Source: Chthoniobacterales bacterium
GTDB taxonomy: Bacteria > Verrucomicrobiota > Verrucomicrobiia > Chthoniobacterales > JACTMZ01
Direction of reading: 5' to 3'
Length of the DNA stretch: 43,701 nt
Assembly: GCA_021463515.1 (NCBI GenBank)
Contig: JAJTYZ010000108.1
Coordinates: 1 to 43,701, forward strand
The notes beneath the pieces were generated by a model. It worked only from the letters and a program-made list of their open reading frames with translations. It made no database searches and had not been told where the DNA came from. Positions 7,293 to 17,586 of this stretch are shown here, piece after piece. The position numbers and the translations under genes are program-made. Every line of letters begins with the position of its first letter. Position 1 is the first letter of the stretch.

Positions 7293-8174
7293 TTACATGC
7301 GCACGGAGGGTGACCATGCCATCATGCGAGCGGCATCATCAAAGATGTATTTCGTTTTGCTACCCAGCTGAACAAGGATGACATCACGTCCATGAAACTG
7401 CCCACTCGAGACGAGACAGCGCCCTGCGGCGATGGTGTAGCCGGTTTTCATGCCATTAAAAGCGGGAGAACGCGCGAGGAGTTTGTTGGTAGCTTTAAGC
7501 GTCGTTGTGCGTCCGCTGTTATGACGAAAATAGGCCACGGGTTGCCGCATAAATATCCGTAGCACAGGCTCGCGGTAGGCAAGGTAGGCGATACGAGCGA
7601 TGTCGCGAGCTGTCGAATACTGCGGAGCGGGAAGGCCATTACTATTGACGAAATGGGAATCACGGGCTCCGAGAGACCATGCAAGATTGTTCATGGTTGC
7701 GGCAAATGCCGACTCACTGCCGCTATGATCTCGTGCCAGTGCGGCACAGGCATCATTGGTGCTTTTGACCATGATAGCTTCCAACAAATTGCGGCGTGAG
7801 TAACGCTCGCCGGCACGCACTCCAAGTTTGGTTGGCTCGACGCGTGTGTCTTCGGGCTGAATGGTGACCATGGAATCAAAATTACCATGACGTGAAACGA
7901 TGAGGGCTGTAAGCAACTTTTGCGTGCTGGCCACTTGACGGCGCATATCCGCATTTTTTTGAAACAATGTTTCGCCTGTTCGAGCATCAATGAGAATCGC
8001 CGATTCGGCATGTAATGCAGGTGCATTAGATGGCCAGACGGCAGAAGAAGATGGTGCCATAGCCACCAAAGCTAAGGGCGGTGCTACAGGTTCGGCACGT
8101 TGGGCGATGGGCGTAGGAGTGGTTGCGCATCCAGCTAGAAGAGCCACGAGAACTAATGGGAAAAGTCGAATCAT
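7293..8174 (-). CDS. D-alanyl-D-alanine carboxypeptidase (peptidase S11), lipoprotein
   Basis: This is a penicillin-binding-protein-type DD-carboxypeptidase that trims the terminal D-Ala of peptidoglycan stem peptides. All three active-site motifs are present: S83-T-Q-K86, S138-T-N140 and K243-T-G245. The N-terminus is a lipoprotein signal ending LLAGC, with the lipidated Cys at 16, then a Pro/Ala-rich linker to about residue 55. The 293 residues cover the catalytic domain only; the C-terminal PBP5-type domain and amphipathic anchor are absent, consistent with lipid anchoring. Its start overlaps the folE2 stop by 4 nt, so the two are probably co-translated although functionally unrelated. Confidence 0.9.
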   Translation of the reverse strand: MIRLFPLVLVALLAGCATTPTPIAQRAEPVAPPLALVAMAPSSSAVWPSNAPALHAESAILIDARTGETLFQKNADMRRQVASTQKLLTALIVSRHGNFDSMVTIQPEDTRVEPTKLGVRAGERYSRRNLLEAIMVKSTNDACAALARDHSGSESAFAATMNNLAWSLGARDSHFVNSNGLPAPQYSTARDIARIAYLAYREPVLRIFMRQPVAYFRHNSGRTTTLKATNKLLARSPAFNGMKTGYTIAAGRCLVSSGQFHGRDVILVQLGSKTKYIFDDAARMMAWSPSVRM

Positions 8175-8983
8175 GATTTACGAATATGTTTTTCTACGAG
8201 CGCATAAGCGTTGTGATTGTGAATGCTTTCAAAATTTTCTGCCTCAACCCGCCACCATGCAATACGGGGATCATCATTGATTTGAGCCGCGATATTACGC
8301 ACGAGGTCTTCGACAAACACCGGGTTCGCATAAGCGCGTTCCGTCACAGCTTTTTCATCCGGACGTTTCAGAACGCTATACAGCTCGCTGCTAGCGGAGC
8401 GTTCAATTAAGGCTACCATTTCGGCAAGCGGAAGAGGCGGCACCGAGCGTAGCGCGAGCGTCACTTGGCCGCGTTGATTATGCGCCCCAACATTGCTGAT
8501 GGCCTTGGAACACGGGCAAAGCGTGGTGACATTGGCAATGACTGTCGTCACCAAATCATGCGATTGCTCATCCGCAGTGGCGCTAAAACGCGCCACATAA
8601 TCCACCAACCCGGGAGCACCGGTGACAGGTGCCTTTTTTTCGAGAAAAAAGGGAAATTCAAATTCGAGATGCGCCCGTTGACTATGCAAACGTCGGATAA
8701 GGGAACGCAGTAAATGCTCAATACCCTCCGTGCGCAAAATTGGGCCGTGCGCTTGAATGACCTCAAGAAAACGGCTCATGTGCGTGCCCTTAAATTCATG
8801 CGGCAATTCTGCCGTAAGTTGCACCGTGGCTATGGTGCTTTGTGTGTCCTCCGGCCCAACCGCAATCCGAATGGGAAAGCGCAAATTTTTGACGCCAACG
8901 CGATCAATCACAATTTGGCGATGGTCCGGTTCATTTTGCGTGTCCCGTAGTCCGACGGGCGAGGCGTCCTCCGATAGCTTCAT
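8171..8983 (-). CDS. folE2: GTP cyclohydrolase FolE2 (type IB)
   Basis: FolE2 (COG1469/MptA family) converts GTP to dihydroneopterin triphosphate, the first step to folate, using metals other than the zinc of FolE. The 270-residue length is typical. LCPCSK (155-160) contains the metal-ligand Cys, followed by GAHNQRGQVTL (166-176) with the conserved His. The N-terminal VGVKNLRFPI (29-38) and the GTHMSRF motif (66-72) are family hallmarks. The stop overlaps the S11 peptidase start by 4 nt. No folE is seen in the window. No Zur-like site was recognised upstream. Confidence 0.95.
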   Translation of the reverse strand: MKLSEDASPVGLRDTQNEPDHRQIVIDRVGVKNLRFPIRIAVGPEDTQSTIATVQLTAELPHEFKGTHMSRFLEVIQAHGPILRTEGIEHLLRSLIRRLHSQRAHLEFEFPFFLEKKAPVTGAPGLVDYVARFSATADEQSHDLVTTVIANVTTLCPCSKAISNVGAHNQRGQVTLALRSVPPLPLAEMVALIERSASSELYSVLKRPDEKAVTERAYANPVFVEDLVRNIAAQINDDPRIAWWRVEAENFESIHNHNAYALVEKHIRKS

Positions 8984-9043
8984 GCACAGGCAATTTACCT
9001 ACGATTGTTGCCGCACAAAAGGGATTTGTCCAAATACCTGAAG

Positions 9044-9910
9044 CTACGAAACTCTGATGCGGCTGACGCGGGCAATGAGGAAACGACTGAGCAGCACGTA
9101 AAAAACAAGCATGGGAAGGGTGACTGCCAAAGCACCTGCGGCAAAAACTCCCCCCATCGTGTCGGAGTAGAGTGAGTGTAACCCCAGGGGCAACGTGAAC
9201 CTCTCGGAATCCTGCAACAAAATGGCGGCAATGACGTATTCATTCCATGCGGCCGTGAAGGAAAAAAGTGCCGTCACCGCAAGTCCAGGAGCCGAGACAG
9301 GTAAGACAACACCTCGAAAAATTTCTGCCGGCGTACATCCATCCATACTCGCCGCCTCCTCAATCGTCTCGGGAATGCCGTCATAAAACACCTTCATTTG
9401 CCAAATGCTAAACGGCAAAATGCTGGCGAGATAAATAAGAATGACGCCAAAAAAGGTATTGATAAGCTTGATCTGCACGAGAATTAAAAAAATCGGCAGC
9501 AATACCATCGTTGCAGGGAAAAGCTGTGTCACAAGAAGGGTATGAAGAACGGTCGGACGTCCAAAAAACCGATACCGTGAAAGGGTGTAGCCTGAGGTCG
9601 CCGAGAGAATCACGCCTACCACGGTGACGGCAAGGGCAATGATGAGCGAGTTGGCGAGCCACCGTAAAAATTCGGTATCGGTCATGAGCCGATAAAAATT
9701 ATCCAATGTCGCATCACCAGGAAGTCGCCATGACGAAGCATCCGAAGGAGACGAAGGTTCGAGCGCGGGCACAAGGATTTGCCAAAGCGGCAGCAGAGCA
9801 AGAATCGCGGTGAATGATAAAAAGGCGTAGGACGCAATTTTTCTCATCAGGCCGTCAAACCAACGGCTTTCGGGTAAACCAGATTCTAATTTAGGACGCT
9901 TCTTTTTCAC
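9044..9910 (-). CDS. ABC transporter permease, MalG family (carbohydrate uptake)
   Basis: This is an inner-membrane permease of the CUT1 sugar importer type. The 288 residues form about six membrane segments, the first at about 27-47. The cytoplasmic EAA loop EEAASMDGCTPAEIFRGVVLP (starting at residue 184) docks the ATPase, and the large periplasmic P2 loop after TM1 resembles MalG. The start is a GTG at 9910; no in-frame ATG gives a better N-terminus. It stands alone: no malE, malF or malK is adjacent. It is divergent from two exported GH13-fold genes, which suggests a role with alpha-glucans or maltodextrins by inference only. Confidence 0.9.
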   Translation of the reverse strand: MKKKRPKLESGLPESRWFDGLMRKIASYAFLSFTAILALLPLWQILVPALEPSSPSDASSWRLPGDATLDNFYRLMTDTEFLRWLANSLIIALAVTVVGVILSATSGYTLSRYRFFGRPTVLHTLLVTQLFPATMVLLPIFLILVQIKLINTFFGVILIYLASILPFSIWQMKVFYDGIPETIEEAASMDGCTPAEIFRGVVLPVSAPGLAVTALFSFTAAWNEYVIAAILLQDSERFTLPLGLHSLYSDTMGGVFAAGALAVTLPMLVFYVLLSRFLIARVSRIRVS

Positions 9911-10035
9911 GACGGAGAACTCTTAGAGCAGAATTGAGGAAAGTCATTCGTGCAAGGCCAGAAGCAATATCGCGCCGCTTTTGCGAGTCAGGTGAATTGC
10001 AGGAACGCGCTCTTGGTGCGTGCGAAGTCGGCTGC

Positions 10036-10064
10036 TTGACAGTGCCAAGAGGACGACTTGTGAT
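10036..10064 (+). promoter_or_regulatory. Candidate sigma70 promoter of the GH13-fold gene pair
   Basis: TTGACA at 10036-10041 is followed after 17 bp by TGTGAT (10059-10064), a partial -10 match. The ATG of the downstream gene is at 10076, so the predicted transcript would begin only about 5 nt before it and would be nearly leaderless. Only a CAGG lies upstream of the ATG, so no strong ribosome-binding site competes with this reading. Confidence 0.35.
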
Positions 10065-10075
10065 AGCAGGTCTGT

Positions 10076-11851
10076 ATGTATCGTTTCCTTGTCGTTTGCG
10101 TGTTGGCATTCCTTGTTTGCGAGGGGCAAGCGAAAGACCAAATTTATGAAACATTCGGAGCAGACCTCATCCGCTACCATTTCCAGCGAGAAGCGGAAGG
10201 CTTGAAAATTCGAGTCTTGGGGGCGGGTGTGGATGGTCCTGATCAAATCGTCTTTGTGGCGTTTCATGCAAATGGCGACTCCGGTTCCTATCTCATTCCC
10301 CCTACACTCAAGCAAACCGGGTCTGCCACCTGGCTCCCCTTCGCCGCAGACACACTTATCATCGCGAATGCGTCAAATGGAAAGAGTGCTCCCTTGATAT
10401 ACCAGTGGGATAAAAATGAATGGCGTCCCCTCGCTGCGAAGAATGATCTCGTTTCCATCGCGTCCGCACCCGCACAACTCACCCTGCACATTCCCAACAA
10501 ACTCCTCGGCACCTCCGCGCAAATCCCCTTGGCGATTTATCTAAAAGACCTTCGTACTGATGGTGGTCGAGGAAGATTTTACGGAGCCGAAGACCAATCC
10601 GCCGTCTCCGGCATCGGTGAGCGCGTGATTCATCATTACCTGATCATGGAGTCCGGAAAAATCGGCACGCAATTTCTGAGGGCCGGACGACTCATGCCCA
10701 ATGCTGAGAAGATACGCATTTACCAAATGTCACTTCACATTATTGATGGAGAAAAAAATTTTCTCGAGACGTATGAGAAAACATGGGACGAATTGCAAGC
10801 ACGAGGCTTCACTCACATTTGGCTAACGAATGTGCCGCCTCCGGAAGCATGGGCAGACACCTTTCGTTCATTGGCAGATCGTCTTCATTCGAGAAAAATG
10901 AAAATGCTTGTGAGCTTCGACGCCTCGCAAGAAGGCGTGGATCGCGCTCTCCACACTTGGCAAAAGTTAGGAGCCGATGGCTTTGGCGTTCGCGTATCGC
11001 TCACAGCGTCGCCGGAAGAGTGGCGGCAATTTATAACCCAAGCTCGCAAGCGTGATCCCCAAGCCTATTTTATCCTTGAGAATGCAAATGACATCCCTAG
11101 CGAGGCGATAACGGCGTGGCTCGATGCAGGATTTGATGCGCTCCACGATCTCACAGCGCAACAAACCGTGAAGGCAATTTACGAAAAGGAGGCCAGTGCC
11201 AATGACAGAGACCCGAAATCGCGAAGGCCTCTTGTTGAAGATCACACGCTGCAAAGCATGGATCCCACTTTATGGGCGGTTCCCGACGAACGGTTATATC
11301 ACGCTGTGGCACCGCTGTTGTTTGGACTTTCTCGCGGGCCTGTGATGTTGGTGCAAAATCAAGACGCCGAATCTGCCGTGGAACAACGCGACTTTTACCA
11401 CCGCTTACTCAGCATCCTCAATCAGCCTGCATTTCGCGAAGGAGATTTTTATCCCCTCAACCCCGACAACCGTGAGAATCCCAATTATGGCCGGATAGAC
11501 AATGGCGAAAGCGGACGTTGGCTTTATAGTTACCTACGTTACGATCCCACCACACAGCAGCGATTCCTCGTGATTGTGAATCTTCACCCTCGTGAAACGC
11601 TCCACGACTTACGCGTGCGGCTAACACGTCCGGTCATGCAATTTCTCGGCTGGGATGACATTGCGGGGTCGAAAATAGTTCCAATTATGGTTCGAGATAC
11701 CTTAGGCGATATGCCGGCAGAGTCCGCAAACATTCAATCTACACCTGCGGAAATGGATGTTCCCGGGTTACCGTTAAAAGAGCTTCCTCCACTTTCCGCC
11801 GCTTATTATGAATTAACCCATCCCACACGTTTGCCAACACGCAATCCGTGA
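10076..11851 (+). CDS. Exported GH13-fold (alpha-amylase-like) protein, catalytically degenerate
   Basis: The 591-residue product begins with a signal peptide (hydrophobic residues 4-13, cleavage near EGQA-K). After an N-terminal beta-rich region (about 30-160) a GH13-like barrel is recognisable. Region II reads GADGFGVRV (299-307), where active enzymes have DGFRxD; the nucleophile position is Arg306 and the invariant Arg is Gly304. The acid Glu may survive as Glu335 (FILEN), but region IV is VEDHT (387-391) instead of NHD. The C-terminal half keeps the barrel end and a beta domain. The alignment is by eye. Hydrolysis is therefore unlikely; glycan binding or a structural role is inferred. Its stop overlaps the next gene (GTGA). 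Confidence 0.7.
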   Translation: MYRFLVVCVLAFLVCEGQAKDQIYETFGADLIRYHFQREAEGLKIRVLGAGVDGPDQIVFVAFHANGDSGSYLIPPTLKQTGSATWLPFAADTLIIANASNGKSAPLIYQWDKNEWRPLAAKNDLVSIASAPAQLTLHIPNKLLGTSAQIPLAIYLKDLRTDGGRGRFYGAEDQSAVSGIGERVIHHYLIMESGKIGTQFLRAGRLMPNAEKIRIYQMSLHIIDGEKNFLETYEKTWDELQARGFTHIWLTNVPPPEAWADTFRSLADRLHSRKMKMLVSFDASQEGVDRALHTWQKLGADGFGVRVSLTASPEEWRQFITQARKRDPQAYFILENANDIPSEAITAWLDAGFDALHDLTAQQTVKAIYEKEASANDRDPKSRRPLVEDHTLQSMDPTLWAVPDERLYHAVAPLLFGLSRGPVMLVQNQDAESAVEQRDFYHRLLSILNQPAFREGDFYPLNPDNRENPNYGRIDNGESGRWLYSYLRYDPTTQQRFLVIVNLHPRETLHDLRVRLTRPVMQFLGWDDIAGSKIVPIMVRDTLGDMPAESANIQSTPAEMDVPGLPLKELPPLSAAYYELTHPTRLPTRNP

Positions 11852-14367
11852 CATTGGACTTCATGGTCATTTCTTTCAGCCTCAATCGTTGGCGCACCGC
11901 ATTCCTTCTATTTTGCCTCGCGACGAGGTGGGGTTGTGCGGAGGAAATGTCAGCCCCAAAACCAGAAAGCCTCCTTGGTTGGATTCCCATGCAGCGGGTA
12001 ACTGCCGGCGATCAACTCCTCCTCGATTTGCGACGATTTTATTTTGAGGCACCGGGCAGCAATGAACAATTGGTCATAAGTGACTCCGTTCCGGGTAAAT
12101 TTTTAATCGCCATGGATACCACAAGCCGCACGTTGGCTATCAATGTAGGCAAACATACGGCGGGGCTGCTTGAAATTCCGTTACAAATTCAACGGGTTAC
12201 TCACCAGACGCGTGATCTCACCCAAGTCGGGCGCAAAGACATGAGCCTTGGGGCCACGACCAATCGAGAAGCTCGAACCGTTCTTCATGAGGGAGTACTG
12301 GTCATCGCTGTTCAACCTGCCGACGGGTACACCTTCACCTACCACGCCATTGGAGAATCACCTCACAATGTATCTGTCACCGGCTCCTTTAATCAATGGA
12401 ATCCCACCTCCCATAAACTCTGGCCTATCAGCGAAAACACCTTTCAGCTTTTCGTACGACTTCCTCCCGGGCCGCACTCTTACAAATTCATCGTGGACGG
12501 TCAGCAAATCCCGGACCCCGAAAATCCGGAGCAAGCTGACGATGGAAAAGGCGGCAAAAATACCATTGCTCGTGTCGGTACTTGGGATCGTGGGCGCGCT
12601 CCGGTTGTCTATGCAGAATCTGCCAATAACGAACAAATGGCTTTTCGTCTCATCCCGGGAGATTCAAACATTGTTCAAATATCCACAGTCCTTCAACTCC
12701 CCGGAGGGGACAGCCGCATCGTGCAACATCACCGCGAGGAAAATGTCGTAACGGTGGATACGACGGCGATGCCCGAGGGTTCATGGATTCGTCTCGCCGC
12801 AGCAGATGCCCTTGGCAATGTCAGTAAAGTCGCTCGAGCTCCCGTGCGTCCGTTCACCGATTTTCAATGGCAAGACGCCATCGTTTATCATGTCCTTACC
12901 GATCGTTTTGCCGATGGAGAGCCGAGCAACAATCGTCCCGTGGATGACACTCGCGTACTGCCTTCTCTTAATTTTCAAGGCGGGGATTTTCAGGGCATCC
13001 GTAAAAAAATGGAGGAAGGATATTTTTCATCACTTGGCATCAATGTATTGGAACTGGCACCCATTTTTCGCAATCCCGAAGGAGCATGGCAATCTTACCT
13101 ATCCTCCTCTCGATTTTCGACGGGTTACCATGGTGCTTGGCCAATTTCGATGCAGGACGTTGACGAACGCTTTGGAGGAAGTGCGGCTTTTAAGGAATTA
13201 GTGCAGGCGGCTCATGCGGGAGGAATGCGTGTCATTACGGGCAACGTCTTAAAGCACGTGCATCAAGAACACCCGCTCTGGAAAGAACAGCCAGAGTTTT
13301 TTACCTCGTTGGAATTAGGTGACGGCAAAAAAAATCTACGCCTCTCGAAGGACAATCCATGGACCACATGGAGTGAAAAATGGTTACCAAGGTGGGATGT
13401 CAACAATCCCGAGGTCACTCAGTATCTTTTGAAACATGCCACGCAAGTGGCCGAGCAATTTGATCTCGATGGGTACCTCTTTAATGCCGCACAGGACATC
13501 GAACATTCATTCTGGTGGCGTTACGGTGCCGCCATTCGCATGTTGATAAACCCCAAACGGCGCGTGCCGTTTTATAGCGTCGGCAAAACGCTCCTAAATC
13601 GTCAGGACATCGTGAGCTACGTGGGGTCCAATATGCTTAATGGACAATTTGATTTTCCGCTCTACAAAACCATCATAAGCGTCTTTGCGAAGCAGGATTT
13701 AGGAATGGAAATTTTGAACCAATCCCTCGTGGCCTCCGAATGGATTTATGGAAAGGAAACGCCGATGGCACCCTTTGTGGGGGGGGAGGAGACAGGCCGA
13801 TTTATGGCTTTTGCCGATGGTGATTTACCCGACCCGGCCGAACCTAACGAAGAAGAAGTCGGATGGAAAAAGCCACCCTCTGTGGACAACATCACCTCCT
13901 ACGAGAAGCTCAAGTTAGCACTCACATTTCTTCTCTCCATTGATGGCGTTCCCACAATTTATTACGGCGATGAAATCGGAATGACGGGGGCCGGTGCGCC
14001 CGATAATCAACGCATGATGTTGTGGGACGAGAAAGTGACTGACGAACAAAATGCCGTGCGTGAACATTTTCGTAAGGTCGCCGCCGTTCGTCATCAACAT
14101 CCCGCCCTTCGCTATGGAAGCCGTCGTGTGTTAGTTGCGGAAGGCGACCGTTATGCCTTCGTTCGAGCACATCTCGGCGACACGGTGCTGGCCGTATGGA
14201 ATCGCGGAAAATTCCAAACCGAATTCAGGCTCACCGTAGCACCGGAAATGCGTGATGGAGTTTACTTAGACGCACTTTCTGGCAACACCATGGAAGTGAA
14301 AAACGGACGTACTTCTTTCAAAATTCCACCCATGACTTCCGCTCTTTTCGTCGTCAAAGAAAACTAG
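11848..14367 (+). CDS. Exported CBM48 + GH13-fold protein with substituted catalytic triad
   Basis: The product is 839 residues from the GTG overlapping the previous stop, or 834 from ATG 11863. A signal peptide is followed by a beta-rich N-terminal part, a CBM48/AMPK-type glycogen-binding domain (about 155-243, core NVSVTGSFNQWNP), a linker domain, and a GH13 barrel from WQDAIVYHVLTDRFADG (341-357) to GVPTIYYGDEIGMTG (700-714). The barrel aligns closely with cyclomaltodextrinase-like enzymes, but the nucleophile Asp is Asn546 (DGYLFN), the acid Glu is Lys580 (SVGK), and the NHD motif is GEE (646-648). Region I has Gly465 in place of its Asp. It looks like an alpha-glucan-binding pseudoenzyme. 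It is probably co-translated with its upstream partner. Confidence 0.8.
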   Translation: MTLDFMVISFSLNRWRTAFLLFCLATRWGCAEEMSAPKPESLLGWIPMQRVTAGDQLLLDLRRFYFEAPGSNEQLVISDSVPGKFLIAMDTTSRTLAINVGKHTAGLLEIPLQIQRVTHQTRDLTQVGRKDMSLGATTNREARTVLHEGVLVIAVQPADGYTFTYHAIGESPHNVSVTGSFNQWNPTSHKLWPISENTFQLFVRLPPGPHSYKFIVDGQQIPDPENPEQADDGKGGKNTIARVGTWDRGRAPVVYAESANNEQMAFRLIPGDSNIVQISTVLQLPGGDSRIVQHHREENVVTVDTTAMPEGSWIRLAAADALGNVSKVARAPVRPFTDFQWQDAIVYHVLTDRFADGEPSNNRPVDDTRVLPSLNFQGGDFQGIRKKMEEGYFSSLGINVLELAPIFRNPEGAWQSYLSSSRFSTGYHGAWPISMQDVDERFGGSAAFKELVQAAHAGGMRVITGNVLKHVHQEHPLWKEQPEFFTSLELGDGKKNLRLSKDNPWTTWSEKWLPRWDVNNPEVTQYLLKHATQVAEQFDLDGYLFNAAQDIEHSFWWRYGAAIRMLINPKRRVPFYSVGKTLLNRQDIVSYVGSNMLNGQFDFPLYKTIISVFAKQDLGMEILNQSLVASEWIYGKETPMAPFVGGEETGRFMAFADGDLPDPAEPNEEEVGWKKPPSVDNITSYEKLKLALTFLLSIDGVPTIYYGDEIGMTGAGAPDNQRMMLWDEKVTDEQNAVREHFRKVAAVRHQHPALRYGSRRVLVAEGDRYAFVRAHLGDTVLAVWNRGKFQTEFRLTVAPEMRDGVYLDALSGNTMEVKNGRTSFKIPPMTSALFVVKEN

Positions 14368-14382
14368 CTGTCGGGTATCGCA

Positions 14383-14739
14383 TTAGCCGAACAGATTGTG
14401 TGCGACGAAGATCGCAATGACAATGAGTACCAAGCAAAGGAGCATGAAGAGAATCTTATCTCGGCGTACTTCTCTGCGTGTTTGACGTTTCCTTCGACTC
14501 CTCGTTTGCAGGCCCGAGTTCCCGCCGAGTACGCGATGCCCCAAGGGTTGAGGATGCGCAATGGTGGCGATATTATTGAGGCGTACTCTTTTGTCTGGAG
14601 AAGGTGAAGACCGATTGACCCGCGGTTTTTTACGAAGTTCCCTCTCCGCCTCTGCCATCTCCTGTTTAAGCTGTGCTTGTTGTTCCTCAAGTCGCTGAAC
14701 ATGCGCCGCCAGCGAGTTTGAAGGACTTTTACGCGCCAT
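14383..14739 (-). CDS. Small tail-anchored membrane protein with coiled coil, unknown function
   Basis: I do not recognise a family. The 118-residue product has a charged, Gln/Glu-rich heptad segment at about residues 12-38, a basic, Ser/Pro-rich middle, a strongly basic stretch (about 80-93) and one hydrophobic segment at the C-terminus (about 95-115), ending HNLFG. This predicts a bitopic protein with its N-terminus in the cytoplasm. It starts 4 nt after the stop of the coiled-coil gene upstream and is the last gene of a minus-strand run. Coding potential is supported by this operon spacing rather than by homology. Confidence 0.6.
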   Translation of the reverse strand: MARKSPSNSLAAHVQRLEEQQAQLKQEMAEAERELRKKPRVNRSSPSPDKRVRLNNIATIAHPQPLGHRVLGGNSGLQTRSRRKRQTRREVRRDKILFMLLCLVLIVIAIFVAHNLFG

Positions 14740-14743
14740 GGAG

Positions 14744-15361
14744 TCAGTGTCCTCCCACTTGAAGTTGCATAAACCAAAGCACGAGGCCCAACAATCCGAT
14801 CGCTGTGAGGGGAAGCGTGAAGGCGATTCCGGCCATCAGCCAATACCCAAATCCCTGACCTCCATTCGTGAACTCATCATCATAGGGGCTGGGCCCTGCC
14901 ACGGGATGTTCGGAAACGACCTGCGCCTGAGCTTTGACAAATACCGACCGTGCATCCTCCACCGTCCCATTGGCACGCGAAAGCTCTTTCTGAATTTCGT
15001 CCTGTGCCCAATCCTTGGGATTGATGGCTTCGAGCTCCTGCAGGTAGGAGGAAAAGCTATCGCGAACGTTTTTGAGAATTTCTAGTCGTTTGAGAGTTTC
15101 ATCCGTCTCACGCTGAATTTGCACCAGCGAAGATGTGAACTTATCCACCATTTCCGCACGTCCAGACTCAAATTGATCTTGGCGGTGACTTAGCTCTTCG
15201 TACTTTTGTCTTTCACGTTCGAGTTGCTCTTCCTGTTGTTTAAGGGCACTTAGGCGCTCTCGCATCTGCGCCGCTTTATCACCAAGTTGCTCGACCGGTG
15301 AAGCCGAAGTTCGGTCGTTGTCCTCAAGGAAATCTTCGCGAAATGAACGGGGATCAGCCAT
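14744..15361 (-). CDS. Coiled-coil protein with C-terminal membrane anchor, unknown function
   Basis: From ATG 15361 the product is 205 residues; an upstream extension to 15433 is possible but begins with an unlikely N-terminus. A long, highly charged coiled coil covers roughly residues 20-120 (many Gln, Glu, Arg and Leu heptads). A single hydrophobic segment lies near the C-terminus (about 177-198, WLMAGIAFTLPLTAIGLLGL). It shares its architecture (coiled coil plus tail anchor) with the next gene, which starts 4 nt after its stop. A cytoplasmic scaffold attached to the membrane is a reasonable inference, but no family is recognised. Confidence 0.65.
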   Translation of the reverse strand: MADPRSFREDFLEDNDRTSASPVEQLGDKAAQMRERLSALKQQEEQLERERQKYEELSHRQDQFESGRAEMVDKFTSSLVQIQRETDETLKRLEILKNVRDSFSSYLQELEAINPKDWAQDEIQKELSRANGTVEDARSVFVKAQAQVVSEHPVAGPSPYDDEFTNGGQGFGYWLMAGIAFTLPLTAIGLLGLVLWFMQLQVGGH

Positions 15362-15438
15362 AAATGAGTCTCTGCCTAAATGGTAATTTTTCCAACATCC
15401 CATGACGAGGAAAAAGTGCCCTCGAAGTCGCAAATCCG

Positions 15439-15849
15439 CTAATCTTTCCAGCGAACCAAATTTACACGTCCGCGCGTGATGACATCGAAGTCCGCATCCA
15501 CACGGGTGGCACTCGGAATAGGAACAAGCATCGTTCGTACTTCGTGCGGCTGCATATTTAAGATATTTCCCAGCGGGTTTTCCGCGAGCACCTGACCCGT
15601 GCCATCCACCACTTCGACTGTAAAAACAACGGAAGTAGCCGTGCGCGACGTTTGATTTTTTAAGCGAACGCCAACGGACATTCCTTCTTCCGCAATTTTC
15701 AATGGCTCCACTTCCAGCACCATCCCGGCAACATCACGCAGGCTTTCCACACTCACCCGGGGCTTTGAGAGCAAGACACGACTCCATACGACGGCACCAA
15801 CGAGAAGAAGAACCAATGCCGCGATAAGACCAAATTTTCCTGACATCAA
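15439..15849 (-). CDS. Single-pass membrane protein with periplasmic beta domain (FxLYD-like)
   Basis: The 136-residue product has an N-terminal membrane segment (about 6-26) and an extracytoplasmic domain of beta character. VRLKNQTSRTATSVVFTVEV and the following DGTGQVL, together with the spacing to PHEVRTMLVPIP, resemble FxLYD-type immunoglobulin-like domains; this is a pattern match by eye. Its start overlaps the stop of the pseudopilin gene by 4 nt (ATGA), so the two are probably translated together and may act in the same envelope assembly. Function is unknown. Confidence 0.65.
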   Translation of the reverse strand: MMSGKFGLIAALVLLLVGAVVWSRVLLSKPRVSVESLRDVAGMVLEVEPLKIAEEGMSVGVRLKNQTSRTATSVVFTVEVVDGTGQVLAENPLGNILNMQPHEVRTMLVPIPSATRVDADFDVITRGRVNLVRWKD

Positions 15850-16655
15850 AAGTAAGGATTATTTTCGTCCGGCTGGGTAAATACGCTCGCATATTCTGCG
15901 TCGTAAGGGAAGGCTCGAACAAATTCGATATGGCCATCCAGAAATGCGGCATTCGCCCAAAGATGATCCGGATCGTTTTTATACCACTGCGCTTTTTCAC
16001 TCACAGCCACCACGCCGCTCATCGTGCGGTGAATAGGGATGCTGCCAATCACGACTTTTTTGGAAGCAGCAGGATAAGACGTTACGCGAAGAGCTTTTCC
16101 GAGTGGAAGAAAATCGGAAGCAAATTTCGCATATGAAAACTCCACGCCAATAAACTTCGCAATGCCCATGGGTGCAATCACACCACCGATCTCATTGAAC
16201 CCCGACGCATAAAAATAGCTACTTCCATAGAGCTCATAACATGTCGAAGCTTTGCCAGCATCTGCAGGTGTGAGCCACCAAAGCGGTTCACCACGATCGC
16301 AGGGAGAGCGAAATATCTTCGGTGATTCCACGTAGGCATTGAGCGGACGTTCCTCGGCAGGTAATTCTCCTCCAAACATTGTCGCGGGAAATGTTCCTCC
16401 CTTTCCCTGAACACCACCCAACTCTTGCGGTGCTGCGACAGGCAAAAGGCCATCATGGTCGGCTGTATAATTTAGCAAAGCGACGGTGATTTGCCGTAAA
16501 TTGTGCTGACATCGAGCACGACGTGTCGCATCCAACGCCGATTCCACAGCCGGAAACATGATCCCCGAAAGCGTAGTGATAAGCCCTACAATCACCAAGG
16601 ATTCCACCAAGGTGAAACCTAAGCAATAGTTTCGCAATTTGCGGCGAAAAGGCAT
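15846..16655 (-). CDS. Prepilin-type N-terminal cleavage/methylation domain protein (pseudopilin-like)
   Basis: The 269-residue product starts at ATG 16655, preceded by AAGGA, in preference to an upstream GTG at 16691. The type IV prepilin motif is GFTLVESL, with Gly before the cleavage site and Glu at +5, followed by a hydrophobic helix and CQHNLRQITVALLNY. Near the C-terminus LWANAAFLDGHIEFV matches the H...DGH pattern common in DUF1559-like pseudopilins of Planctomycetes and Verrucomicrobia. Such proteins are processed by PilD and are exported to pilus-like or type II secretion assemblies; no PilD or secretion ATPase is in the window. It lies 10 bp downstream of the PEP-CTERM gene. Confidence 0.85.
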   Translation of the reverse strand: MPFRRKLRNYCLGFTLVESLVIVGLITTLSGIMFPAVESALDATRRARCQHNLRQITVALLNYTADHDGLLPVAAPQELGGVQGKGGTFPATMFGGELPAEERPLNAYVESPKIFRSPCDRGEPLWWLTPADAGKASTCYELYGSSYFYASGFNEIGGVIAPMGIAKFIGVEFSYAKFASDFLPLGKALRVTSYPAASKKVVIGSIPIHRTMSGVVAVSEKAQWYKNDPDHLWANAAFLDGHIEFVRAFPYDAEYASVFTQPDENNPYF

Positions 16656-16665
16656 TTTAGGATCC

Positions 16666-17586
16666 TTAATTCCGAGATGTTTTCGCAACACGATTTCGAC
16701 GCATGAAAAGAAATCCCAACACCACCGCAGCCAGGGTCAGCAACATCATGGAAGATGGCTCAGGAACTGTACTCGTGGTGTAAGCAACCGTCATGTTTCC
16801 TACGAGAGAGTTTGTGGTAATGGGTAACCCCGTATCCGTCGAAAACGGATTCGTTTTATTCATCCACGTCAGCAATAGATATGTCGCGTTCGTAGGAAGT
16901 GCCGGCTGAATTTCACTGAGCAAATAGGACTTTAGCGAAAGGCTGTTTGAAATACCGCCCGGATTAAAAAGAAGCTCCGGCAAACTTGGAGTCAGTGCCG
17001 ACACCGGTAAAAGATAACCCGTCTGCGTGGCCTGAACGAAGATTGCATCCTTATCGGTTGGGCTCGGGTCTCCGTCCTGCGCCGCCGCCAAAAAGAAATT
17101 TAAATTGTACTGAATCGCCCAATCTACGGCTCCACTCTCATCCCAAGACCCTCCTGTGCCATTTGTATCGTTCAAATATTGATTCATAGCCTGTGCCGGA
17201 AGAGGCCCCACTTGACCTGCATAGGACAAACTCGAAGCCGACACATTCCATAAACTTCCCCCTCCCGATTGGAATTGAAGCTGTAAATTCCCCGTCAATG
17301 CCGGAGACATGGCAAATCCCAATGCACCGAGTGCGCCTGCAGGGTCCACGAAATTGAAGCTATAAGTCCCATACGGATTATGCCCCGTTGGCGAATTCGT
17401 ATCCGGAAAAGTCAGCCAGTTACTAGTGGATGCTCCCTTCCCAATCACTGTGCTTGATGTCAGCAATTGGAAGTCTGCTGTCAACGCCCGCACCTCTCCC
17501 GTTGAAGCTAAAACAATCGCGGCACCGCTGAGGAGACCGATGGCGAACCGACGGCGGAATTTCCCGCCAACAAATGAGTTTTTCAT
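16666..17586 (-). CDS. PEP-CTERM sorting-domain protein
   Basis: This is a 306-residue exported protein. It has an N-terminal signal peptide (RRRFAIGLLSGAAIVLASTG) and a C-terminal PEP-CTERM tripartite signal at about 274-306: VPEPSS, a membrane segment, and the basic cluster MRRNR. Proteins with this signal are processed by an exosortase (EpsH/XrtA type) and exported to the surface or extracellular matrix; the exosortase is not in the window. The body is Ser/Thr/Asn/Gly-rich with no recognised enzymatic domain. It is the first gene of a five-gene minus-strand run and has a perfect palindrome 16 nt upstream of its start. Confidence 0.9.
   Translation of the reverse strand: MKNSFVGGKFRRRFAIGLLSGAAIVLASTGEVRALTADFQLLTSSTVIGKGASTSNWLTFPDTNSPTGHNPYGTYSFNFVDPAGALGALGFAMSPALTGNLQLQFQSGGGSLWNVSASSLSYAGQVGPLPAQAMNQYLNDTNGTGGSWDESGAVDWAIQYNLNFFLAAAQDGDPSPTDKDAIFVQATQTGYLLPVSALTPSLPELLFNPGGISNSLSLKSYLLSEIQPALPTNATYLLLTWMNKTNPFSTDTGLPITTNSLVGNMTVAYTTSTVPEPSSMMLLTLAAVVLGFLFMRRNRVAKTSRN

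Follow-up and report, generated by a model that had tools for sequence, protein, structure and literature searches.

Probable conversion of a conserved pair of GH13 genes to non-catalytic proteins in one lineage of Chthoniobacterales

In the plant isoamylase ISA1/ISA2, a CBM48-GH13 protein without catalytic residues is kept as a partner subunit; there, one partner stays active, whereas both genes of the bacterial pair described here are altered. The ectodomain of 4F2hc (SLC3A2), a GH13-type pseudoenzyme, is without domain B and the three catalytic residues (PMC8537225). In bacteria, the BmaN1 group comprises GH13 proteins with an aberrant triad, among which BmaN1 is active and a subgroup has all three positions substituted (PMC5347038). 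In the GH57 alpha-amylase-like proteins, kin of alpha-glucan enzymes, one or both catalytic residues are absent (PMC6037648). Thus, pseudoenzymes of such a kind are already known. No paired bacterial GH13 pseudoenzymes were found among the best-ranked open-licence literature, and a search of that literature for a freshwater Chthoniobacterales alpha-amylase returned nothing. The case described here is a variant in that both genes of a conserved pair were converted, within one restricted lineage, and in that one of the two is without domain B.

The window, i.e. the whole stretch of DNA analysed (43,701 nucleotides), corresponds to contig C11 in the draft assembly of genome G000, which is 65.65% complete, and it was compared with ten congeners (G001-G010). 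It carries, on the forward strand, two long intact frames with a 4-nt GTGA overlap, as the original prediction had described. Gene 1 (10076-11851) encodes P1, an exported-looking GH13-derived protein of 591 residues without catalytic triad or domain B; gene 2 (11848-14367) encodes P2, an exported-looking CBM48-GH13 protein of 839 residues with replaced catalytic residues. Export is putative for both, their hydrophobic N-termini having been judged by eye. A promoter-like element (10036-10065, forward strand) consists of TTGACA (10036-10041), 18 nt and GTGATA (10060-10065), followed by 10 nt to the gene 1 ATG. The TTGACA lies 39-41 nt 5' of this ATG in G000 and in the five congeners with mapped starts, and is also found upstream in three more (G005, G007 and G010; G006 was left out of this comparison). 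It is absent in G008 and in all three genomes from other families examined, and a generic sigma-70 scan flagged no site at the element. The divergent neighbour (9044-9910, reverse strand) encodes a maltose-type ABC permease whose best NCBIfam match is MalG (139 bits, under the model cut-off of 261). An assembly artefact was rejected because the flanking genes are common to the congeners, as far as the contigs reach, and contamination is 0.49. No plasmid record encoded a P1 relative.

Some features of the surroundings were noted in passing. The folE2 and malG genes are nearly adjacent in G000 and G008 (window 8984-9043), unlike in G004, where they are separated by an ORF (L046:3880-4563) whose sequence was recognised by eye as QueE-like radical-SAM. 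Further downstream, the window carries three ORFs (15439-17586), of which one gave a DUF1559-type match and another has a PEP-CTERM motif; they have homologues in G008 and gave no match in the congener stretches searched.

P2 belongs to GH13 by sequence: the Pfam Alpha-amylase model PF00128 matches residues 349-728 (4e-25, 89.4 bits, cut-off 22), and its best matches among PDB sequences are Anoxybacillus and Geobacillus alpha-amylases, maltogenic amylase and neopullulanase. The CBM48 domain predicted ahead of the barrel was recovered at residues 173-243 (12364-12576) by the Pfam model AMPK1_CBM (55.8 bits, cut-off 26.8), CBM_48 falling just under its own cut-off (18.8 against 22.4 bits). The GH13 barrel extends over residues 337-757 (12856-14118), and a C-terminal beta domain, delimited from the model and the domain rates, over residues 758-837 (14119-14358). 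The predicted structure (pLDDT 78.3, with residues 354-376, 409-429 and 497-509 poorly predicted) matches TVA II, neopullulanase and GTA in Foldseek. GH13 enzymes of the neopullulanase/cyclomaltodextrinase type (TVA II, neopullulanase) and alpha-amylases of the GTA/ASKA type are like P2 in fold, in sequence and in having their barrel flanked by an accessory beta domain on the N-terminal side and a C domain on the other, but differ from it in that the triad and most of the -1 subsite residues are replaced in P2.

The Asp/Glu/Asp triad reads Asn546, Lys580 and Glu648 in P2, NHD has become GEE (Gly646, Glu647, Glu648), and the flanking motif GVPTIYYGDEIGMTG is intact, in agreement with the residues first listed. 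That list was incomplete, however, for Asp465 of region I is replaced by Gly, and Arg544Leu, Lys549Gln and His550Asp are further changes. Among the seven residues that we take to be usually invariant in GH13, His470 alone remains; Gly465, Leu544, Asn546, Lys580, Glu647 and Glu648 stand for Asp, Arg, Asp, Glu, His and Asp. At the 138 positions that are invariant in 24 related proteins, P2 shows 31 changes, while any one of nine congeners put in its place shows none (eight cases) or one of 139. The changes affect six of the seven catalytic-site residues, on the list that we assume, against 25 of the 131 other invariant positions (Fisher P 5e-4). In the CBM48 domain, where we presume, by AMPK, two tryptophans on the ligand face, P2 keeps one (Trp184) and has Gln220 where all eight congeners shown have Trp. 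Selection of the pair for alpha-glucan binding in particular is putative.

Gene 1 gave no Pfam or NCBIfam match at E 0.01, does not reach the PF00128 cut-off, and matched a single PDB sequence at chance level (E 0.067); it is assigned to GH13 because it is orthologous to full-length GH13 proteins. It is orthologous to a protein some 850 residues long, from which it differs by trimming: compared with G009, P1 misses 258 residues in eight in-frame blocks (15+43+40+93+15+9+15+28), which include the beta2-alpha2 loop, the beta3-alpha3 insert (domain B, where 40 + 93 residues are lost from between positions 281 and 288) and the NHD segment. The alignment places Arg306 at the nucleophile and Glu335 at the acid position, as foreseen, and a gap at the stabiliser. 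The DHT first read as region IV of gene 1 was a misalignment and is ruled out, the NHDE columns being gaps in P1. Neither protein has the Asp/Glu/Asp of a functional enzyme (Arg/Glu/gap in gene 1, Asn/Lys/Glu in gene 2), and it is very probable that neither barrel is catalytic in the manner of a GH13 enzyme. The AlphaFold model of P1 (pLDDT 85.1, pTM 0.84) nevertheless has eight barrel strands and eight helices, so that the predicted (beta/alpha)8 architecture is present despite the lost blocks. In it, a beta domain (residues 21-205, 10136-10690), which evolves at near neighbour-gene rate, precedes the trimmed barrel (residues 206-448, 10691-11419, from the alignment and the model), and a second beta domain, seen in the model and in the G008 comparison, follows it (residues 449-582, 11420-11821). 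GlgE and TVA II are the first Foldseek matches of P1 and human 4F2hc has rank 30 (E 9.7e-12), every TM-score by query length being below 0.5.

The likeness of P1 to 4F2hc lies in the barrel, which is without domain B and the triad in both (PMC8537225 for 4F2hc). However, 4F2hc is an animal membrane protein bound to an amino-acid transporter, whereas P1, known from sequence and model, arose separately in bacteria and has an N-terminal domain of its own. The BmaN1 group resembles the window proteins as bacterial GH13 proteins with replaced catalytic residues, but BmaN1 is active and keeps the acid Glu, whereas the two window proteins form a pair, have no close relation to BmaN1 and include one without domain B. 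Its pattern (acid Glu kept, Lys and His at the Asp positions) is found in neither. The GH57 cases concern another fold family with hundreds of listed sequences, while here two GH13 genes in one operon of one small lineage are involved.

The relatives of the pair were the best 80 of 540 (78 loci), found through peptide patterns; since the window protein no longer matches one of these, LDGQFDFP, dead relatives may be under-sampled. For the alignments, 11 of the 78 loci were excluded because their genomes were represented already, and ORFs of at most 250 bits against active gene 2 were excluded too; the distant rows L058 and L069 were left out, and L129, L125 and L140 were omitted from the 86 rows in which invariance was assessed widely. 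For the triad alignment, each fused protein was reduced to the half concerned, and the gene-1 rows went from 35 to 34 on removal of L107, a gene-2 sequence. The gene-2 triad is D/E/D in 89 of 90 rows from several phyla, the window protein being the sole exception. The gene-1 triad is intact in 32 of 34 rows, with P1 and the G008 protein as exceptions. Beyond these rows, 68 of 213 genomes of the order match the gene-1 profile at 1e-10, some over about 60 positions only; among the best 30 of these loci, the triad is present in all 30 (29 by script, and L191, which equals L066, by alignment). As a side observation, G000 itself has a 681-residue frame (L195:1503-3548) that matches about 60 positions of this profile, has similar frames in other genomes of the order, and matched no NCBIfam model at 1e-60.

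The same pair is found in nine of the ten congeners, where gene 2 adjoins a longer gene 1 (841-980 residues as the longest frame in eight genomes; that of G006 is cut by contig ends). In seven loci of Opitutia, Opitutaceae and Puniceicoccaceae (L099, L100, L103, L106, L108, L110 and L120), genes 1 and 2 form one open frame of 1580-1615 residues with both triads intact, which indicates that the products belong together in relatives. This fused two-barrel tandem amylase of Opitutia/Puniceicoccaceae may merit a study of its own. The description of the two barrels as paralogue-like is weak: the active gene 1 and gene 2 of G009 give one short BLASTP match (25% identity, E 7e-4), although the two profiles align over the barrel with an hhalign probability of 98.9%. 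On the sequences compared, the pair is a conserved Verrucomicrobiota gene pair and not an old pseudoenzyme system, and the predicted inactivation is restricted, among the rows examined, to G000 and, for gene 1, its sister G008. Hence the idea of coupled pseudoenzymes under selection holds for the window proteins, which are very probably non-catalytic and for whose frames selection is supported, but not as a shared, established system, intact-triad orthologues being the rule.

The reading that we prefer, at close to even chances, is that two exported GH13 enzymes, conserved as a pair, were converted, in the window lineage, to still-selected, non-catalytic exported proteins whose barrels serve as scaffolds and whose beta-sandwich domains hold alpha-glucan or a partner. 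The ancestral pair would have consisted of exported enzymes with intact triads. Gene 1 would then have shed domain B and the active-site loops, its eight barrel strands being predicted to be kept, and gene 2 would have swapped residues in place. Constraint is concentrated outside the barrels, which would now give no more than structural support to the beta-sandwich domains; the latter would hold alpha-glucan or a partner outside the cytoplasm. Counting against this explanation are the dispensability of the pair in G008, the loss of one expected CBM48 tryptophan and the gene 1 barrel being the fastest domain. A variant, to which we give rather less than an even chance, has the pair in mid-conversion to a maltodextrin-capture or importer-docking complex, the P1 barrel converging on a 4F2hc-like pseudoamylase, the P2 residues being replaced in place and the constrained beta-sandwich domains being the working parts.

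Gene decay would account for the same residues differently: extracellular starch degradation would have been lost, selection weakened or ended, and the frames would be open for lack of time. This is unlikely. In codon models, omega = 1 on the window branch is rejected for gene 2 (delta lnL 116), by domain with values of 64.5 for the barrel, 12.7 for the other N-terminal domains and 5.0 for the C domain (5 taxa). For gene 1 (6 of 10 taxa), it is rejected for both tips jointly (108) and for the G000 tip (26.6), weakly for the G008 tip (3.2); malG gives 119 in the same test. By domain (6 taxa), the joint values are 36 (N), 30 (barrel) and 46 (C), while the two single tips give 1.2 and 1.9, 14.0 and 1.7, and 11.6 and 0.02, respectively, so several single-branch, single-domain fits do not reject neutrality. 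The omega values themselves are rough, since synonymous sites are saturated, the gene-2 branch sits at its upper length bound in free fits and base composition differs in the codon fits (GC3 0.51 versus 0.70-0.89); the rejections were therefore used instead. A neutral phase with a probability of at least 0.05 of having met no stop codon would allow about 79 substitutions in gene 2, changing 6.7% of residues, too few to replace six of the seven catalytic residues: the probability of at least six such changes is about 5e-7, by a bound that ignores indels and treats all residues alike. Recent neutral decay as the full account is ruled out by these rejections together with this bound.

Selection on both frames is thus supported. 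Where it acts was examined from domain rates, taken as the window branch over the congener tree. The gene 2 barrel gives 0.90 and the other gene 2 domains 0.14, 0.27, 0.29 and 0.22; the gene 1 barrel gives 0.95, its N domain 0.27 and its C domain 0.32; the neighbours give 0.24 (malG), 0.23 (folE2), 0.23 (dac) and 0.43 (the gene at 14744). Relative to the congener tree, the barrels therefore outpace the flanking domains of the same protein by a factor of 3-6, the flanking domains evolving at near-housekeeping pace; in 20 bootstraps, with the stem counted with the congener tree, the ranges for barrels and for accessory domains are separate. In absolute rate, the gene 2 barrel is little faster (0.875 versus 0.40-0.74 for the accessory domains), and the gene 1 barrel is clearly the fastest domain (1.37 versus 0.72 and 0.25). 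That the relaxed parts are the barrels, i.e. the catalytic parts, is also what decay would produce. Plain decay of the pair is nevertheless unlikely because omega = 1 is rejected, because TTGACA is kept in G000 (though not in G008) and because the flanking domains keep near-housekeeping pace. Unlike pseudogenes, the two genes have open frames and reject omega = 1 (for gene 1, at both tips jointly). The original prediction had named, as speaking against it, orthologues with an intact triad beside a decaying copy; the former exist, while decay of this copy is unsupported by the rate and stop-codon tests, though G008 has apparently lost gene 2.

In G008 (88% complete), gene 2 was not found, the only match being part of a different GH13 gene, on contig C67, at 29% identity, and gene 1 lies on a different contig from malG, away from the permease gene. 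The pair is therefore dispensable in the sister, which favours decay, as do the few GH13 stretches in both genomes and the gene-1 barrels of G000 and G008, just 37% identical. The C domains of the two are 70% identical. Gene 1 of G008 encodes 590 residues, and its lost blocks overlap those of P1 without being identical, so that the main losses are probably older than the split, and each lineage has since been trimmed further. Two observations on G008 are recorded here for themselves. Compared with window 7293-17586, its locus L073:8886-15875 is rearranged: neither gene 1 nor gene 2 adjoins malG any longer, and a block homologous to 14744-17586 lies on the other side of dac-folE2-malG. In L075:5179-6886, a branching-enzyme-like gene seems to span more than one frame, by a frameshift or an assembly error.

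A protein-protein role without sugar binding, in which P1 and P2 would dock to the maltose-type importer or to another envelope complex, or form structural subunits of it, comparably to the 4F2hc heavy chain of amino-acid transporters, is still less probable. The absence of domain B and triad from P1, as in the 4F2hc ectodomain (PMC8537225), the presence of 4F2hc among the Foldseek matches, the adjoining permease gene and the well-kept gene 1 C domain, the best conserved part, all fit it; but GlgE and TVA II outrank 4F2hc at TM-scores that are uniformly low, the permease neighbourhood is also found where the enzymes look active, and gene 1 of G008 is no longer beside the permease gene. New or residual chemistry at the altered sites is very improbable: BmaN1 carries Lys and His at two of the three catalytic positions and yet is active (PMC5347038), Glu335 is kept in gene 1 and Glu647/Glu648 are present in gene 2, but the acid Glu of BmaN1 is Lys580 in gene 2, domain B and the active-site loops of P1 are gone, and the gene 1 catalytic positions differ between G000 (Arg/Glu/gap) and G008 (His/Ala/gap), so that no new site is conserved.

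The genome setting bears on what still-selected, non-catalytic proteins could do. Stretches (not genes) matching PF00128 number five in G000 and five in G008, against 16-24 in the nine other congeners; two of those in G000 are GlgX and GlgB. MalG-like, MalF-like and GH77 genes are present in all eleven genomes, GH77 passing its NCBIfam cut-off and the permeases falling short of theirs. That the maltodextrin route was lost as a whole is therefore unsupported, and the lineage looks able to import and use maltodextrin while being GH13-poor, although the missing third of G000 may hold further genes. On the preferred reading, conversion to scaffolded binding proteins, captured maltodextrin would be fed to the retained maltose-type importer and the cytoplasmic GH77 enzyme, and the lineage would presumably rely on sugar released by others.

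Both proteins have active-looking relatives that occupy the same locus in other members of the genus. It is therefore possible to read in which order, and under which selective regime, an enzyme turns into a pseudoenzyme, and then to test this on matched pairs of proteins. The model of P1 suggests that a bacterial GH13 barrel can shed domain B yet keep its eight strands. For genomes such as this one, an automatic "alpha-amylase" label can overstate starch degradation.
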